The notes below the pieces were generated by a model that was not told where the DNA came from, ran no database searches, and saw nothing but the letters and a program-made list of their open reading frames with translations. A program made the position numbers and the translations under genes. Below, piece by piece: positions 50,285-57,155 of a stretch of DNA of 64,000 bases. Every line of letters begins with the position of its first letter. The first letter of the stretch is position 1. The stretch is from Streptomyces sp. CB01373 (GTDB taxonomy: Bacteria; Actinomycetota; Actinomycetes; Streptomycetales; Streptomycetaceae): positions 310,001 through 374,000 of the forward strand of contig NZ_NNBK01000002.1 in NCBI RefSeq assembly GCF_002803075.1, written 5' to 3'.

Positions 50285-51172
50285 TCACGGCGAGGGTGCG
50301 TCGAAGGTGACCGGGGCCTCGAAGGCGGCCCGGCGGGTGGCCCGGCGCAGCGCCCGCAGGACGGCGTGGCCGAGGACGAGGGTCAGGACCACGGTGACCG
50401 AGGCCCGGCCCAGGTCCCAGCCGAGCGAGGTGGCCAGGCAGTACGCCACGAACCGGGCCAGGTTGGCGGCGATGTCCGCGTGCGGGTCGAATGCGATGGA
50501 GGAGGCGAGGGTGCCCATGAAGGGCCAGCCCGCGAGGTTCATGACGGTGCCGTAGGCGAAGGCGGCCAGAAAGCCGTAGAGCGCGAGCAGCAGCAGTTCC
50601 GCGCGTCCGCGCAGCCGGTCGGGGCCCGGCAGCAGACCCGCGCCCATGGTGAACCAGCCCATGGCGAGCATCTGGAACGGCATCCACGGGCCCACCCCGC
50701 CGGTGAGCAGCGCGGAGGCGAACATCGTCACCGAGCCGAGGACGAACCCGAAGCCCGGCCCGAGCACCCGCCCGCTCAGCACCATGAGGAAGAACATGGG
50801 CTCGATTCCGGCCGTCCCGGCCCCGATCGGGCGCAGCGCGGCCCCGGTCGCGGCCAGCACGCCGAGCATGGCGACGGCCTTCGGGCCGAGGCCGGACTCG
50901 GAGATGGTCGCGGTGACGACGGCGACGAGCAGCACGAGCAGGCCCGCGAACAGCCAGGGCGCGTCCTGCGCGTGCGCGCTGAGCTGTGAGGCGGGCGGGG
51001 CGAGGAACGGCCAGCCGAACGCGGCCACACCGACCGCGCTGACCAGGGCGAGCGCGGCGAGGGACCGGGGGCCGAGCCGGACGGCCCGCACCCGGGGACG
51101 GGACGTCGCGCCGGCCGGGCGTACCTTCTCCTCGGCGGGACGGGTCTTCGCGTCGGCAGGGCGGGCCGTCAT
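50285..51172 (-). CDS. ECF transporter S component (probable cobalamin)
   Basis: Substrate-binding membrane subunit, 295 aa from ATG 51172, which overlaps the upstream ATPase stop (ATGA). After a charged N-terminus of about 35 residues come about seven TM helices, including PIGAGTAGIEPMFFLMVLSGRVLGPGFGFVLG and MNLAGWPFMGTLASSIAF, typical of S components of the CbrT/ThiW-like kind. It is the last gene of the B12-riboswitch operon, so cobalamin is the predicted ligand. Confidence 0.82.
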   Translation of the reverse strand: MTARPADAKTRPAEEKVRPAGATSRPRVRAVRLGPRSLAALALVSAVGVAAFGWPFLAPPASQLSAHAQDAPWLFAGLLVLLVAVVTATISESGLGPKAVAMLGVLAATGAALRPIGAGTAGIEPMFFLMVLSGRVLGPGFGFVLGSVTMFASALLTGGVGPWMPFQMLAMGWFTMGAGLLPGPDRLRGRAELLLLALYGFLAAFAYGTVMNLAGWPFMGTLASSIAFDPHADIAANLARFVAYCLATSLGWDLGRASVTVVLTLVLGHAVLRALRRATRRAAFEAPVTFDAPSP

Positions 51173-52866
51173 GCCAGCGCCTCGCGGACCTGGGTGGCGG
51201 TGAGCCACCGCTGCGGGGCGAGGATCTTGGTGACCTGCGGGGCGAAGGAGGGTGAGGACACCACCACTTCGGCCGTCGGACCGTCGGCGATCACCTCGCC
51301 CTCGGCGAGCAGCACGACCCGGTGGGCGAGTTCGGCGGCCAGTTCGACGTCGTGCGTGGCGAGCACGATGGCGTGTCCCTCGGCGGCGAGCGCGCGCAGC
51401 AGGGCGACCAGTCGGGTCTTGGCACCGTAGTCGAGGCCGCGGGTCGGCTCGTCGAGCAGCAGCAGGGGCGGGCGGGCGGCGAGCACGACGGCGAGCGCGA
51501 GCGCGAGGCGCTGGCCCTCCGACAGGTCGCGGGGGTGGGTGTCGTCGCCGACGCCCGGCAGCAGTTCGCGGACCAGGTCCCGGCAGGTGCCGGGCGCGGC
51601 CTGCGCGTCCTGGTCGGCGGCCGCGCACTCGGCGGCGACCGTGTCGGCGTACAGCAGGTCGCGCGGCTCCTGCGGGACGAGCCCGACCCGGCGCACCAGT
51701 TCGCGGGGCGTGGTGCGGTGCGGGACGGCGCCGCCGACCCGTACCCGCCCGGCGGACGGCTGGACCAGGCCGACGAGCGAGCCGAGCAGCGTGGACTTCC
51801 CGGCGCCGTTGCGGCCCATGAGGGCGACGGTCTCGCCGGGTGCGAAGGACAGGTCGACGTTCCGCAGGGCCTGGACACCCGCGCGCCGGACGCCGAGGGA
51901 GTGGACCTCGGCCACGGGCGCGCCCGCCGGGACGGGCTCGGCGGCGGGGGCGCGGCGCAGCCGCCACCGGGGCGCCGGACGGGGGTCCGGACGGGGTGCG
52001 CGGAACGGGAGCGCTGCCGCCGGTGCCGTCCCGGAGCGTGCGGGCTCCCGGCCGTCAAGGCGTTGCCGCAGGTCCGTGGCCCGGCGGCGGGCGTCGCGGA
52101 CGGTGAGCGGCAGCGGGGACCAGCCCGCGAGGCGGCCCAGGTCCACCACCGGCGGATACACCGGGGAGACGGCCATGACGTCCGCGGGGGGCCCGAGCAG
52201 CGGGGCGGCGCCCGGGGCGGGCAGCAGGACGACCTGGTCGGCGTACTGGACGACCCGCTCCAGGCGGTGCTCGGCCATGAGGACCGTCGTGCCGAGGTCG
52301 TGCACGAGCCGCTGGAGGACGGCGAGGACCTCCTCGGCGGCGGCCGGGTCGAGCGCCGAGGTCGGCTCGTCCAGGACGAGGACCTTCGGGTGCGGGGTGA
52401 GGACCGAGCCGATCGCGACCCGCTGCTGCTGGCCGCCGGACAGGGTGGCGATGGCGCGGTCGCGCAGGCCGGCCAGGCCCAGCAGGTCCAGGGTCTCCTC
52501 CACGCGCCGCCGCATCACGTCCGGGGCCAGGCCCAGCGACTCCATGCCGTAGGCGAGTTCGTCCTCCACGGTGTCCGTGACGAAGTGCGACAGCGGGTCC
52601 TGCCCGACGGTGCCGACGACGTCGGCGAGTTCGCGCGGCTTGTGGGTGCGGGTGTCCCGGCCGGCCACGGTGACCCGGCCGCGCAGGGTGCCGCCGGTGA
52701 AGTGCGGCACCAGTCCGCTGACCGCGCCCAGCACGGTGGACTTGCCGACGCCCGACGGGCCGACGAGGAGGACGAGTTCACCCTCGGGCACCTCGAAGTC
52801 GACGCCGCGGACCGTGGGTTCCGCCGCTCCGTCGTAGGTGACGGAGACATCCTCGAAGCGGATCAC
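51169..52866 (-). CDS. ECF transporter ATPase, fused A and A' domains
   Basis: 565 aa from GTG 52866 (AAGGAG six bases upstream). Two ABC domains in tandem. The first has Walker A GPSGVGKST, signature LSGGQQQR and Walker B VLVLDEPTSALD. The second has GRNGAGKST, LSEGQRLALALAVVLAARPPLLLLDEPTRGLD and the H-loop ATHD. A Pro/Arg linker (about 275-335) separates them. Energises the S/T pair. Overlaps its neighbours by four bases on both sides. Confidence 0.93.
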   Translation of the reverse strand: MIRFEDVSVTYDGAAEPTVRGVDFEVPEGELVLLVGPSGVGKSTVLGAVSGLVPHFTGGTLRGRVTVAGRDTRTHKPRELADVVGTVGQDPLSHFVTDTVEDELAYGMESLGLAPDVMRRRVEETLDLLGLAGLRDRAIATLSGGQQQRVAIGSVLTPHPKVLVLDEPTSALDPAAAEEVLAVLQRLVHDLGTTVLMAEHRLERVVQYADQVVLLPAPGAAPLLGPPADVMAVSPVYPPVVDLGRLAGWSPLPLTVRDARRRATDLRQRLDGREPARSGTAPAAALPFRAPRPDPRPAPRWRLRRAPAAEPVPAGAPVAEVHSLGVRRAGVQALRNVDLSFAPGETVALMGRNGAGKSTLLGSLVGLVQPSAGRVRVGGAVPHRTTPRELVRRVGLVPQEPRDLLYADTVAAECAAADQDAQAAPGTCRDLVRELLPGVGDDTHPRDLSEGQRLALALAVVLAARPPLLLLDEPTRGLDYGAKTRLVALLRALAAEGHAIVLATHDVELAAELAHRVVLLAEGEVIADGPTAEVVVSSPSFAPQVTKILAPQRWLTATQVREALA

Positions 52867-53999
52867 GACGGCTCCTTGGGGGCGGGACTCGCGGGTGCGG
52901 CGAACGCGGGGGCCAGACCGAGGAGTACGGCGGCGGCGGGCCACAGGGGAAGAGTGGGCGCGACGAGCGGGACCACGCCCGGGTGCAGGGCCTGGGGATC
53001 GCGGGCGGCGGCGAGCGCCAGCAGGGCCGCGACCAGCGCGCCCGACCCCGCGACCAGGCAGGAGCGCGGGTTCCAGGAGTCCGGGCGGTAGCGGGTGCGC
53101 GGGGAGCGGCGCCCGCCGAGCCACAGTCCGGCCAGGGCGGCGGCGACCCCGGTGAGCAGCACCGGCAGTCCGTAGGTGCCGCCCTCGGCGGTGAGCAGCC
53201 CGTACGTCCCGGCGCAGACGCCGAGCAGGCCGCCGAGCGTGAGCACGGCGGTGGTACGGCGGACCGCGGGCGCGACCTCGGCCGTACGGCCGTAGCCGCG
53301 GGCGTCCATCGCGGCGGCGAGCGCGACGGAACGCTCCAACGCACCCTCAAGGACCGGCAGTCCGACCTGCACCAGGCCGCGGACGCCCCGGTCGGGACGG
53401 CCCCGCAGCCGGCGCGCGGCCCGCAGACGCCGGCCGTCGGCGACCAGGTGCGGGGCGAAGGTGAGCGCGACGACGACGGCGACCCCGGTCTCGTACAGGG
53501 CGCCGGGCAGGGACTTGAGCAGCCGGGCGGGCGCGGCGAGGGCGTTCGCGGCGCCCACGCAGACCAGCAGCGTGGCCAGCTTCAGCCCGTCGTACAGGGC
53601 GAAGACGACCGCCTCGGCCGTGACCCGGCCGCCCAGGCGGATGCCCTGCGCCCAGTGCGGCAGCGGGACTTCGGGCAGGGAGACGAGCACGTGCGAGCCG
53701 GGGATGGGCGAGCCGAGCACGACGGCGAAGACCAGGCGGATGACGAGGACGGCGAGGGCGAGCCTGACGAATGCGGTGTAGGACCGCGCGGAGGGCGTGT
53801 TGGGGCGGCAGCTCACGACGACGTAGCCGGAGACAGCCAGCAGCAGGCCGAGCAGCAGGGGGTTGGTGGTGCGGGTGGCCGCGGTGCCCAGGGCCAGGGC
53901 CCACAGCCACCAGGCGCCCGCGTGGACACCGGCGGAGCCGCGGGCGGGTGCGCCGCCGGCGCGGCCCGCCCGTCCGCGGCTCCGCACGGCGTCACGCAT
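52863..53999 (-). CDS. ECF transporter T component (CbiQ-like)
   Basis: 378 aa from ATG 53999, overlapping the upstream gene by eight bases. TM helices plus the coupling helices that dock on the ATPases: RSVALAAAMDARGYGR holds the conserved A-R-G motif of EcfT. The C-terminal extra TM helices (RTTAVLTLGGLLGVCAGTYGLL, VLLTGVAAALAGLWLGG) lengthen it over the usual about 265 aa. Confidence 0.9.
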   Translation of the reverse strand: MRDAVRSRGRAGRAGGAPARGSAGVHAGAWWLWALALGTAATRTTNPLLLGLLLAVSGYVVVSCRPNTPSARSYTAFVRLALAVLVIRLVFAVVLGSPIPGSHVLVSLPEVPLPHWAQGIRLGGRVTAEAVVFALYDGLKLATLLVCVGAANALAAPARLLKSLPGALYETGVAVVVALTFAPHLVADGRRLRAARRLRGRPDRGVRGLVQVGLPVLEGALERSVALAAAMDARGYGRTAEVAPAVRRTTAVLTLGGLLGVCAGTYGLLTAEGGTYGLPVLLTGVAAALAGLWLGGRRSPRTRYRPDSWNPRSCLVAGSGALVAALLALAAARDPQALHPGVVPLVAPTLPLWPAAAVLLGLAPAFAAPASPAPKEPS

Positions 54000-54633
54000 C
54001 CCTGCGCCGCCGCGCCTGCCAGATGCCTGCCGCGGCCAGTACGACCACCGCGGCACCGCCCGCGAGGAGGCCCACCGAGGGGCCCTCGTGCGGCTCGTCC
54101 TTGGCCGGCTGCTCCGTCTTGCCGGCCGCCACCTGCTCGCCGCAGCCCTTCTGCGGGTAGCCGGCGATGGCACACAGCAGGGCGTTGGTGTCGTACCGCA
54201 GCGGTTTCGCGACGGCCGCGAGGGCCTCGGCGGTGGTCGCGTCGGACGGCACCCGGGCGCACTCCGTGCGCGGCGCCGGCGGGGTCTCGCCCGCCGGGGC
54301 GTCCGCCTGGACGCCGAAGTCGAGGACGAGCGCCACCCGCTTGCTGCCCTTCTCGGCGGGCGTCTTCGCGCAGATGGCCGCGAAGTCGGCCGTCGCGCGC
54401 GGCTTGCTCGCGTCCTGGGAGTCCTCGCTCACCGCGAAGCGCAGGCCCTGCACGTCGCCGTCGGAGGGACGCGCCGTCGACGGGCCCTCGGTGGCGTACA
54501 CCCACTTCCCGCCGTCGCGGTCCCAGAAGGACCAGTACCGGTAGCCGGTGGCCTGGGCCTGGCCGGCGCCGGCCACCAGCAGGAGCGCGGCGGCGAGCAG
54601 CGGTGCGCACAGCGCCCGGAGCCGGCGGGTCAC
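53992..54633 (-). CDS. SCO2322-family secreted protein, transcobalamin-C-like beta domain, membrane anchored
   Basis: 213 aa from GTG 54633, four-base overlap (GTGA) with the upstream gene. A signal peptide ends GQAQATG. GYRYWSFWDRDGGKWVYATEGP.. SDGDVQGLRFAVS resembles the DUF4430 / transcobalamin-like C-terminal domain (Y-W-x-F..W). A C-terminal TM helix (GLLAGGAAVVVLAAAGIW) and RRRR tail anchor it outside the cell. Two cysteine pairs could be disulfides. With the upstream toroid protein it would be a split corrinoid-binding receptor. The DUF4430 likeness is by eye. Confidence 0.78.
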   Translation of the reverse strand: MTRRLRALCAPLLAAALLLVAGAGQAQATGYRYWSFWDRDGGKWVYATEGPSTARPSDGDVQGLRFAVSEDSQDASKPRATADFAAICAKTPAEKGSKRVALVLDFGVQADAPAGETPPAPRTECARVPSDATTAEALAAVAKPLRYDTNALLCAIAGYPQKGCGEQVAAGKTEQPAKDEPHEGPSVGLLAGGAAVVVLAAAGIWQARRRRDA

Positions 54634-55853
54634 GACTGTCCCTGCTTCTTCCGGCCGCTCAGCAGGAACCCGATGCCGACGCCCGCGACGGCGAAGACGC
54701 CGATGGTCCACCAGAGGCCGAAGGGGGAGTCGCTCTTCGCGGAGTCCGTGGCGTCCTTGCCCTCGGCGGCCTGGGGAGCCGGTCCGGTTGCGTTGAGCCG
54801 CTGGATCAGGTCGACACCGCCGAAGTCACGCGGGTCGGTGCCGGCCGCGCGGGCCGCGAAGACCAGCTGGGCGTAGGCGGCGGGACCGCTCTGCTTCGCC
54901 CACGCCTCGGAGTTCTTCTCCAGCCACTTCAACGGCTTCTGCGCCTGCGCGGATCCGCCCTGCACGGCGAGGGCGACGACCGTGTCGGCGGTGTTGCCGA
55001 AGTCGGGCTGGTCGGTGGCGCCGGGGAAGGAGGAGGTGAGGTGACCGTCCTTGGCGACGGCCTGCGCGAGGTACGAGGCGCCGTTGGCCGCGGCCCGGTC
55101 GGGGCTGGGCTTGCCGGAGTCCTCGCAACGGGCCGCGCCGCCCGCGTCCTTGCCCTTGCCGCCGGCCTCGGGGGCCAGGCCCTGCCCGAGCGCGGCGACG
55201 ACGGCGGCCGCCGTGGCGTCGGCGTTGGCGTCGAGCTTGCCCTTCTTGTCAGGCTGGAAGGCGAAGGCGCCGGCTCCGTCACCCGAGCACGGCAGGGCCA
55301 AGGCGAGCAGAGCGTCGTAGGGGGACTTGCCGTCCTTGACGACGCTCTCCGGCTTCTGTCCGGCCGCGGCGAGCGCGCCGATCACGACCGAGGTCGAGTT
55401 GGCGTCGCTGGACCCGCCGGGCATGTATCCCCAGCCGCCGTCCTTGTTCTGCACGGACTTCAGCCAGGACACCGCCTTGCCGGCCGCCGTGTCGTGGCCG
55501 CCGAGCGCGGCGAGGGCCTGCACGGCGGCGGCGGTGCTGTTGGTGTCGGCCATCACCTTGGCGTCGCAGGCCTTGCCCGGCTCGGCGCGGTAGGCCGCGA
55601 AGGAGCCGTCGGCGCACTGCTGTCCGGCCAGCCAGTCCACGCCCTTGGCGGCGGGCCGCACGCCGACGGTGTGCTGTGCGAGCAGCGCGAGGGACTGCCG
55701 CCACACGCCGTCGTACTGGGGGTCGGTCGTGCCGTAGAGCCCTGCCGGAAGGGCCGGCGAGGACGGGGCGGCGGACGTGTCAGCGACGGCGGGGGCCGCG
55801 CTGCCGATCACGACGGCGGCGGCCAGGGCCGCGGCGCTGCGGCGGAAGTTCAT
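54630..55853 (-). CDS. secreted, membrane-anchored alpha-toroid protein (intrinsic-factor-like)
   Basis: 407 aa from ATG 55853. A signal peptide ends ..APAVADT. The body consists of prenyltransferase/squalene-oxidase type helical repeats, each with (W/Y)L-x-x-x-Q-x-x-DG-x-(W/F): WLAGQQCADGSFAAY, WLKSVQNKDGGWGYM and YLAQAVAKDGHLTSSF. These build an alpha/alpha toroid like the N-terminal domain of intrinsic factor and transcobalamin. A stalk and TM helix (FGLWWTIGVFAVAGVGIGFLL) with KK/R tail follow. First gene of the operon, just after the cobalamin riboswitch. Confidence 0.85.
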   Translation of the reverse strand: MNFRRSAAALAAAVVIGSAAPAVADTSAAPSSPALPAGLYGTTDPQYDGVWRQSLALLAQHTVGVRPAAKGVDWLAGQQCADGSFAAYRAEPGKACDAKVMADTNSTAAAVQALAALGGHDTAAGKAVSWLKSVQNKDGGWGYMPGGSSDANSTSVVIGALAAAGQKPESVVKDGKSPYDALLALALPCSGDGAGAFAFQPDKKGKLDANADATAAAVVAALGQGLAPEAGGKGKDAGGAARCEDSGKPSPDRAAANGASYLAQAVAKDGHLTSSFPGATDQPDFGNTADTVVALAVQGGSAQAQKPLKWLEKNSEAWAKQSGPAAYAQLVFAARAAGTDPRDFGGVDLIQRLNATGPAPQAAEGKDATDSAKSDSPFGLWWTIGVFAVAGVGIGFLLSGRKKQGQS

Positions 55854-55959
55854 GATCGGCGGGTGCCTCTCCCTGTGGGGAGCCGGACAGCACGGGACAC
55901 CCCGGCGGCTCGGCTCCGTATACCTCGACGGTGCGATGCGCCGGCGGATCCGCCGAGCA

Positions 55960-56089
55960 CATGAGCCGGTCACATTCCGCCCGGGGCATTCCGGCTCGCC
56001 GCCCTCGCGGGCGGTTCACGGCTGCGGGTCAGCGCCGGATTTCCACCGGCTTCCCCCCGAACGGGTGTGATGACGACCCGGTCACTCTA
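55960..56089 (-). promoter_or_regulatory. cobalamin (B12) riboswitch and promoter
   Basis: Minus strand carries the B12-box: GGGAAGCCGGTGGAAATCCG, then GCGCTGACCCGCAGCCGTGA and the later conserved GAGCCGGAATGCC. A possible promoter is TCGGGG, 17 bp, TAGAGT (-10 at 56084-56089), which starts the RNA at the aptamer. Downstream, CCGGCTC (55963-55969) can pair with GAGCCGG of the aptamer (55991-55997) as a switch helix, and a 14-nt palindrome lies at 55942-55955. High B12 should shut off the transport operon. Confidence 0.88.
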
Positions 56090-56257
56090 CCGGCCGACCG
56101 AAAAGGCCCCGAGGGGTGGCCGAAACCGGTCTTCGCCCGGCCCGCGAGGAACCTAAAAAATCTTCGAATTGGGGGGTTCCATCCGGTGCATACGGATTTA
56201 TCCTGGAGGTGGCCTACGAGGCGAGTGAGGGAGTTCGACCGGAGTAGCCGACTTTGG

Positions 56258-56385
56258 CGAGACGCTACGGCATCCGCTGGGGCCGACGTCGACGGTCGGG
56301 CTGAGAGGCCGGAGGGTAGCAGTCGGACCCGAAGGCGACCCCCATTACCTGATCCGGGCAATACCGGCGAAGGGAACCCGTCTCG
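56258..56385 (+). promoter_or_regulatory. TPP riboswitch (thi-box), apparently orphan
   Basis: Plus strand has both TPP hallmarks: GGGCTGAGA near 56298-56306 and ACCTGATCCGGGCAATACCG followed by GCGAAGGGAA up to 56376. CGAGACG (56258-56264) pairs with CGTCTCG (56379-56385) as P1. The next sense start is not a gene: the 3' end of the minus-strand regulator begins seven bases later. It is thus a riboswitch without an evident target. Confidence 0.82.
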
Positions 56386-56391
56386 TAGGTT

Positions 56392-57015
56392 CTATTCATG
56401 CCCCGCGTCAGGCGTGGTCAGGTCGATCAGCCGGCACGCCGTCTCTATGTCGGTCTTCGCCTGGGCGAGGGAGGCGCGGCCCGAGAGCCAGGTGATCAGG
56501 GCCGACAGCCAGGTGTGCTCGATCACGCGGATCGCCGAGAGCTGCTCGGCGGTGGGCTCCCGAAGTCCCATGGCGTCCAGGATGATCGCCGTGGTCTGCC
56601 GGGAGACCTGGTCGACCTCCGGGCTCACGCTGCGGTCCGCGAAGGTCAGCGCGCGGACCATCGCGTCCGCGAGGTGGGGATCGCGCTGGAGGGCGCCGAA
56701 GGCGCGCATCAGGGTCTCCGCCACCCGCTCACCGGCGCTCTCCCCGGCCGGCGGCTTCTTGCGCAGCGTGCCGTGCAGCCGCTCCAACTGGTCCTGCATC
56801 GTGGCGACCAGCAGGTGCACCTTGGACGGGAAGTACCGGTACAGCGTGCCCAGCGCCACCTGCGAGGACTCCGCGACCTCCCGCATCTGCACGGCGTCGA
56901 AGCCGCCCCGGGCGGCCAGTTGGGCGCTCGCGCGCAGGATGCGGCGGCGGCGGGCCTCCTGCCGCTCGGTGAGGGGCGGTGAGGCCGGCCGGGAGGTACT
57001 GGCTCGCGCAGGCAT
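56392..57015 (-). CDS. TetR family regulator, KstR-like
   Basis: 207 aa from ATG 57015. The DNA-binding domain GGFDAVQMREVAESSQVALG and TLYRYFPSKVHLLVATM closely resembles mycobacterial KstR (VQMRAVADRADVAVGTLYRYFPSKVHLLVSAL); EVDQV and EHTWLSALITWLSGRAS match its ligand domain. KstR controls sterol/lipid catabolism in mycobacteria; here it more likely controls the divergent GT4 operon, since a KstR-type operator lies between. Ligand unknown. Confidence 0.9.
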   Translation of the reverse strand: MPARASTSRPASPPLTERQEARRRRILRASAQLAARGGFDAVQMREVAESSQVALGTLYRYFPSKVHLLVATMQDQLERLHGTLRKKPPAGESAGERVAETLMRAFGALQRDPHLADAMVRALTFADRSVSPEVDQVSRQTTAIILDAMGLREPTAEQLSAIRVIEHTWLSALITWLSGRASLAQAKTDIETACRLIDLTTPDAGHE

Positions 57016-57155
57016 GGGTCCCGTTCCGTGACGGTCGGTGGGGGCAAGGGGGCGGACCGCGGGCAGTGGCGCGGGCCGTGGCACGAATCACCCGATCCGC
57101 TGCTCACCGCGTGGCTACCTGCCGGTAGATTCGGAACCTCCTGAACGATCAAGTC

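Follow-up and report, generated by a model that had tools for sequence, protein, structure and literature searches.

A conserved 184-nt RNA is encoded on the plus strand of the window (the whole 64,000-nt stretch of Streptomyces DNA that was analyzed); it contains a TPP-type aptamer and, judged by sequence alone, looks like a stand-alone small RNA gene transcribed from a promoter of its own. Our preferred reading, which we hold with about even confidence, is that this is a free-standing small RNA gene built on a TPP-type aptamer and not the leader of a neighbouring gene. Riboswitches are usually recognized from the gene that follows them; a TPP aptamer maintained by selection as an independent gene, with no shared cis target, would, if true, put a very old sensor to a new use and could tie cofactor supply to stress and dormancy in antibiotic producers. 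The features to which we refer throughout are as follows.

55984–56056, minus strand: cobalamin riboswitch, a separate feature that faces away (RF00174, 40.1 bits)
56177–56204, plus strand: predicted promoter, from aligned kstR-locus copies, with -35-like TTCCAT (56177–56182), a 16-bp spacer and -10 TATCCT (56199–56204)
56212–56395, plus strand: whole conserved RNA, 184 nt; 215.3 bits with family model R1, a score that includes the window as one of the 44 training rows
56212–56223, plus strand: 5′ strand of P1, GCCTACGAGGCG; double-sided changes in 8 of 12 P1 pairs (59 copies)
56229–56231, plus strand: 5′ strand of P2, partner 56339–56341; always paired, varying on one side only (weak evidence)
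56233–56301, plus strand: P3 (56233–56241 with 56293–56301) and its inserted extension (56242–56292); 5 of 9 P3 pairs with double-sided changes, 91.3% of cells paired
56256–56278, plus strand: hairpin in the P3 extension (56256–56265 with 56270–56278); 3 of 9 pairs with double-sided changes, 91.1% paired, 44 copies
56301–56306, plus strand: CUGAGA, TPP-type J3-2, invariant in 59 copies
56308–56336, plus strand: P3a arm (56308–56310 with 56334–56336, 56315–56317 with 56327–56329); 5 of 6 pairs with double-sided changes
56348–56373, plus strand: P4 (56348–56350 with 56371–56373) and P5 (56354–56357 with 56364–56367), the pyrophosphate-type arm, from sequence comparison
56379–56390, plus strand: 3′ strand of P1, CGTCTCGTAGGT, the partner in the aligned structure
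56391–56397, plus strand: pyrimidine-rich tail TCTATTC after P1, a possible (inferred) termination point
56392–57084, minus strand: ORF of a TetR-type (KstR-like) regulator, likely start near 57015 (PF00440 and PF17925)

Identity and Extent of the Element

The original prediction placed a TPP riboswitch at 56258–56385. A TPP-type aptamer is indeed present on the plus strand, as judged from an RF00059 match below the cut-off, the sequence hallmarks and covariation across the family, but the conserved unit is longer than predicted and spans 56212–56395. The RF00059 search proposed with that prediction gave a match at 56269–56392 with 37.3 bits (E 2.7e-5 at a relaxed threshold with 1.6 kb searched, 3.2e-5 when the whole genome was searched), yet this lies below the curated cut-off of 54.3 bits. 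It is for this reason unlisted in a gathering search of the window, which returned only a tRNA and the cobalamin riboswitch. Both TPP hallmarks occur in the window, CTGAGA at 56301–56306 and ACCTGATCCGG...AATACCGGCGAAGGGAA. The low score is probably due to an insertion of about 50 nt in P3 for which the Rfam model makes no provision, and the case illustrates how standard annotation misses aptamers with a large P3 insertion. RF00059 likewise gave nothing above the cut-off at 14 loci carrying distant copies of the RNA.

When the whole genome was searched with RF00059, the window element ranked third of four matches, the others being L001 (63.3 bits), L002 (50.9 bits) and L004 (24.4 bits). Reading the sequences by eye, with no database match involved, we take these three to precede thiO, transporter and thiC genes. 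The last of them (L004:1518–1666, from C5, ahead of the thiC-like gene) apparently also scores low on account of an insert, and at 24.4 bits it too would be missed by standard annotation.

Conserved Structure and Covariation

The alignment of kstR-locus relatives showed that the tail pairs on its 5′ side with GCCTACGRGRCG, located 46 nt upstream of the strand chosen originally, such that P1 comprises 12 bp (56212–56223 with 56379–56390). The 7-bp P1 first proposed, CGAGACG at 56258–56264 with approximately 56379–56385, had to be abandoned: 87.0% of its cells were paired, which equals the shuffled mean, no double-sided change occurred in 44 relatives, and its 5′ bases belong to the covarying hairpin within P3.

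We assessed the structure in two MAFFT alignments. In the first (44 copies), for which the structure was chosen after inspecting the same sequences, 97.6% of cells were paired across 45 pairs, compared to at most 50.2% for slid controls, and there were 28 double-sided changes versus 7.7 in shuffles, with none of 500 shuffles as high. In the second, aligned without structure and composed of 59 diverse copies that had been selected for keeping the core, 95.2% of cells were paired across 37 pairs and 95 double-sided changes were counted versus 21.8 in shuffles, again with 0 of 500 as high. Within the P1-P2-P3/P4-P5 plan, covariation is seen in P1, P3 and P3a; P2 changes on just one side, P4 is invariant, and one P5 pair varies on both sides in the 59 copies. 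Individual pairs are frequently open: pair 11 of P1 is unpaired in 35 of 59 copies, one P3 pair in 15 of 59, and one pair of the P3-extension hairpin in 25 of 44. The P3 extension, approximately 50 nt long, differs among genera.

For the 184-nt RNA the predicted folding energy is -83.0 kcal/mol (z -2.21, a value reached by 5 of 200 shuffles), and the shorter piece 56254–56390 has a z of -0.93 (34 of 200 as low). The minimum-energy fold contains P1, distal P3, the P3-extension hairpin, P4 and P5, and is without P2, proximal P3 and P3a; enforcing the conserved pairs gives -81.5 kcal/mol, a cost of 1.5 kcal/mol relative to the free fold.

CUGAGA and ACCUGA are invariant in the 59 diverse copies and loop 5 varies. 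The latter bears on whether the RNA might be a stand-alone RNA that senses a ligand other than TPP, or none, which we judge unlikely: loop 5 reads ACAAU or ACCAU in many copies where the Rfam consensus is UUAAU, and the P2-P3 junction has an A where the consensus has a U, but CUGAGA, ACCUGA and the GCG.AGG part are retained in nearly all 59 copies. It is most improbable that the element is a minus-strand feature, such as a terminator of kstR, or a DNA inverted repeat that merely resembles a TPP aptamer. P1 is an inverted repeat adjoining the kstR stop codon, as such a feature would be; however, its pairs 8 and 10 alternate between G-U and A-U (23 of 44 and 21 of 44 copies), which fits a plus-strand RNA only, as these pairs would be mismatches in a minus-strand RNA, and elsewhere the element lies beside unrelated genes.

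Predicted Promoter, 3′ End, and Proposed Mechanism

A TAnnnT -10 box occurs at a fixed distance ahead of P1 in 42 of 46 contexts, against a background of 0.3%, and this fixed placement makes the element look like a gene of its own. In the kstR-locus alignment, the conserved unit opens with the promoter and ends shortly past the tail, after which conservation fades. The tail is weakly U-rich, with a mean of 2.3 T in 6 positions over the 46 contexts. Past it, a TGC-like motif near +8 to +9 was seen in about half of the contexts; this TGC/TGCC-like motif, at +8 to +12 after P1 in many unrelated contexts, might mark a site of polymerase pausing or release.

On the preferred reading, the promoter box just before P1 would start transcription of the conserved RNA, whose TPP-type aptamer carries a long P3 extension particular to each lineage and is closed by the 12-bp P1. 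TPP would be bound as in ordinary TPP riboswitches, locking P1; P1 and the pyrimidine-rich tail would together form a terminator stem at which the transcript ends, at about 185 nt, and the yield or stability of the RNA may then follow TPP. The RNA itself would act, in trans rather than on the adjoining gene; it may do so through a protein partner, by storing TPP, or through targets that its P3 extension recognizes in particular lineages. In the 59-copy alignment, no single-stranded segment outside the aptamer is common to all copies, which makes one universal base-pairing target unlikely.

Distribution and Genomic Contexts

With the R1 covariance model, scores above 80 bits were obtained in 100 of 295 Streptomyces genomes, one copy each; the next match listed in Streptomyces scored 48 bits, in the range of ordinary TPP leaders. 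At E 1e-12, the RNA was found in 47 of 200 genomes of the family, representing 8 of 17 genera, and sampling at the level of the order gave matches at E 1e-10 in 65 of 197 genomes, including six from a second family (f3). The class sample gave 9 matches in 296 genomes: five in Streptomyces, three near 48 bits that are probably ordinary TPP leaders, and a single strong one outside the order (genome G799, 114 bits). In one genome of the sister genus g14 (G366), three copies lie within about 76 kb of each other (C1:133984, 193850, 209935), each no more than 210 kb from the end of a contig.

We considered and rejected carriage by phages and plasmids. There was no match among phage records and none in viral contigs, the latter searched with one exact pattern. 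The only plasmid match over most of the RNA was a copy (124 bits) on the 5.7-Mb linear replicon of Embleya sp. NBC_00888; three other matches of 31 bases covered the P4-P5 core only, and a search with a g14 query added one 41-base match in Nonomuraea.

Genomic contexts were compared for 80 loci plus nine more. Outside the kstR locus, the neighbours of the RNA change from clade to clade with no shared sense gene. Taking one representative per downstream gene family, with the window excluded, we obtained 46 contexts in which the downstream gene was convergent in 28, on the same strand in 17 and not called in 1. These counts are approximate given that the ORF calls are heuristic (codon-position G+C), and copies within one genus are non-independent. 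A TPP-dependent enzyme as a common neighbour was rejected, being absent from the ten neighbours scanned. In six Streptomyces loci (L117, L119, L153, L205, L209 and L211), the RNA is convergent to a gene of family c9 that by eye resembles a cysteine desulfurase.

These contexts weigh on two alternatives, both raised in outline with the original prediction. One is that the element is a relic, or a cis riboswitch that has lost its thiamine gene at this place. It is homologous to ordinary TPP leaders (L001 of the same genome scores 39.9 bits with R1), and in the 17 contexts with a same-strand downstream gene cis effects are possible; against this, the promoter, core and helices appear to be under selection across many genomes and places, and no thi gene was recognized in any of the contexts examined, in which part of the neighbours were annotated. 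We therefore consider a relic very improbable. The other is that the element gates a TPP-controlled antisense RNA over the regulator gene, with P1 serving as a TPP-dependent terminator and low TPP allowing read-through that would enter the kstR-like gene and continue in the direction of the glycosyltransferase beyond it. Such an arrangement is suggested by the pyrimidine-rich tail and kstR stop codon that come after P1 and by the convergent downstream gene in 28 of the 45 contexts having one. Nevertheless, 28 versus 17 is a weak excess, and the downstream sequence and gene vary by context, the kstR stop codon itself being from 0 nt to about 3.9 kb away (60 loci and the window). Since this RNA has unrelated neighbours at other loci, antisense control of kstR cannot be its general role; a local effect is possible, and the read-through reading as a whole is in our estimation somewhat unlikely.

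Loss of the Sensor Core

Of 99 kstR-locus taxa placed on a tree, 62 retain the core, 18 are scored by pattern as having lost it (P4-P5 lost or altered) and 19 are without the element. The tree was built quickly from two flanking proteins and has some weak branches; on it the core-lost label requires 7 changes, of which at least 5 are forced by well-supported branches, one of these being the doubtful label of L075, a locus that by the pattern has lost the core in P5 only. Copies without the core retain the promoter, P1 and the P3-extension hairpin. Repeated loss of the core with P1 and the promoter kept suggests that the rest of the RNA has a worth of its own. As part of the wider reading set out below, and with the same tentativeness, the sensor may be a module that several Streptomyces lineages deleted while the remaining RNA persisted.

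A Probable Stress Link in Some Lineages

A set of 17 loci, 16 from g14 genomes and one from Streptomyces (L129), was analyzed for shared neighbours. Usp was the commonest family (10 of 138 neighbour proteins), and baeRF, CBS, BON, cold-shock and S30AE_C ribosome-hibernation domains also occurred near these loci. A second set of ten loci, from f3 and three further genera, gave Usp in 5 of 76 neighbour proteins. Among 134 control proteins from 20 arbitrary 10-kb regions, drawn from g14 only and with none for f3, Usp is missing from the 25 families listed, which leaves room for it in one control protein at most. By tblastn with one USP query, matches were obtained at 8 of the 17 loci, 3 of 7 f3 loci and none of the 20 control loci. 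A USP-like neighbour was present at 1 of 17 loci from other genera, and at none of the 20 kstR-locus loci or the 27 other Streptomyces loci.

A DevR-like pattern with 9 or 10 of 10 letters was present at -43/-44 in 7 of the 17 loci and 4 of 7 f3 loci (background 0.55% per 75-mer). For the OsdR/DevR dormancy regulon, the OsdR consensus is given as AGGGCCGATCGGCCCT (Urem et al., 2016; PMC5069765). Sites of this type with at least 12 of 16 letters occurred at -44 in 9 of the 17 loci and at -45 in 3 of 7 f3 loci, and their overall density was 0.304 per kb in these loci versus 0.147 per kb in controls. A AGGGCCGATCGGCCCT-like box at -44/-45 together with universal-stress neighbours gives part of the g14 and f3 copies a likeness to that regulon, and these copies probably belong to an OsdR/DevR-type stress regulon. 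In contrast, the kstR-locus copies tested, the window included, have neither feature: an OsdR-type box was sought and not found in 16 kstR-locus copies, and the best site of the window copy has 7 of 10 letters in the wrong place, with no Usp neighbours. No box at 9 of 10 or better was found in 45 other non-kstR copies. The stress link is confined to some lineages, and these searches gave no sign of it at the window copy.

A wider reading, which we put forward only as possible from the sequence patterns above, is that the RNA belongs to a Streptomycetales family of TPP-sensing small RNAs that act in trans as a cofactor sensor for dormancy or stress, with OsdR/DevR control in some lineages and a modular sensor.

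Relation to Known Systems

The RNA shares with the TPP riboswitch (RF00059) the CUGAGA and ACCUGA...CCGGCG.AGG core and the P1-P2-P3 and P4-P5 plan. It differs in its long P3 insert, its 12-bp P1 placed at the predicted transcript start, a score under the Rfam cut-off and the lack of a thi gene in cis. The SreA and Rli55 RNAs of Listeria reportedly are trans-acting small RNAs derived from riboswitches, SreA being the terminated leader of a gene that it regulates in cis. In the window RNA, too, a riboswitch aptamer is embedded in a small RNA that may act at a distance from the site encoding it; unlike SreA, the window RNA has no shared cis gene, and its action in trans is our inference. The HMP-PP riboswitch is described as a "terminator-embedded aptamer" that controls a thiamin gene in cis (PMC6478431). 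It thus offers a parallel for a thiamin-pathway ligand and for an aptamer stem that doubles as a terminator, as proposed here, although the window element is of a different RNA class.

We found no published account of this RNA in the text of open-licence PMC papers; supplementary tables may contain an unnamed RNA-seq entry at this place. A re-annotation of S. lividans lists TPP riboswitches at two sites, ahead of genes for thiamine biosynthesis and transport (PMC8079986). TPP and thiamine are absent from the accessible main text of a comparison of sRNAs in three streptomycetes (PMC3765725), and the accessible portion of a survey of structured RNAs in 50 genomes reports different Streptomyces motifs and makes no mention of TPP (PMC11109978).

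The kstR Locus and Neighbours in the Window

As originally described, the element has no sense gene and points into the 3′ end of the TetR/KstR-like gene, the stop codon of which reaches 56392 and adjoins the end of P1. No thi gene that the element could control was found in the window by ORF and domain searches. The next plus-strand gene with a recognized domain is a glycosyltransferase from 57188, about 790 bp onward. Mechanical plus-strand ORFs span the regulator, their start and frame being unconserved in relatives, and a sense ORF right after P1 with GUAGGU as ribosome site was rejected on the same grounds (start codon and frame unconserved in 60 loci and the window).

The KstR-like locus of the window may correspond to SCO2319. 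SCO2319 is named as a possible S. coelicolor orthologue of Rv3574 (Kendall et al., 2007). Relatives of the TetR protein were found at 80 or more Streptomyces loci. The exact 3′ tail of the RNA is present at 60 of the 80 listed loci, including one cut by a contig end (L032) and one without a recognizable 5′ strand (L022); the family model adds two more (L016 and L038), and no copy of the RNA was found in the DNA available for the remaining 18 of the 80. Five loci (L025, L058, L035, L014 and L082) have approximately 1.2 to 3.8 kb of extra DNA between the RNA and kstR, which contains a TPR-like gene in L035 and a long ORF on the other strand in L025. The spot between the RNA and kstR seems, from these five loci, to be open to insertions.

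The conserved RNA starts 155 bp from the B12 riboswitch. This riboswitch does face away from the element, as had been pointed out, but the significance attached to two vitamin sensors lying back to back does not carry over to relatives: in 17 of 20 kstR-locus rows, a gene of family c0 lies upstream of the RNA in place of the B12 riboswitch, and one row (L206) resembles the window upstream. The arrangement is probably a local accident. On the minus strand at 50285–55973, the B12 riboswitch heads a gene set that comprises a toroid-repeat protein (weak SQHop/Prenyltrans matches), a CbiQ-like protein, a double ABC ATPase and an ECF S-component-like protein, which suggests a cobalamin-controlled ECF transporter.
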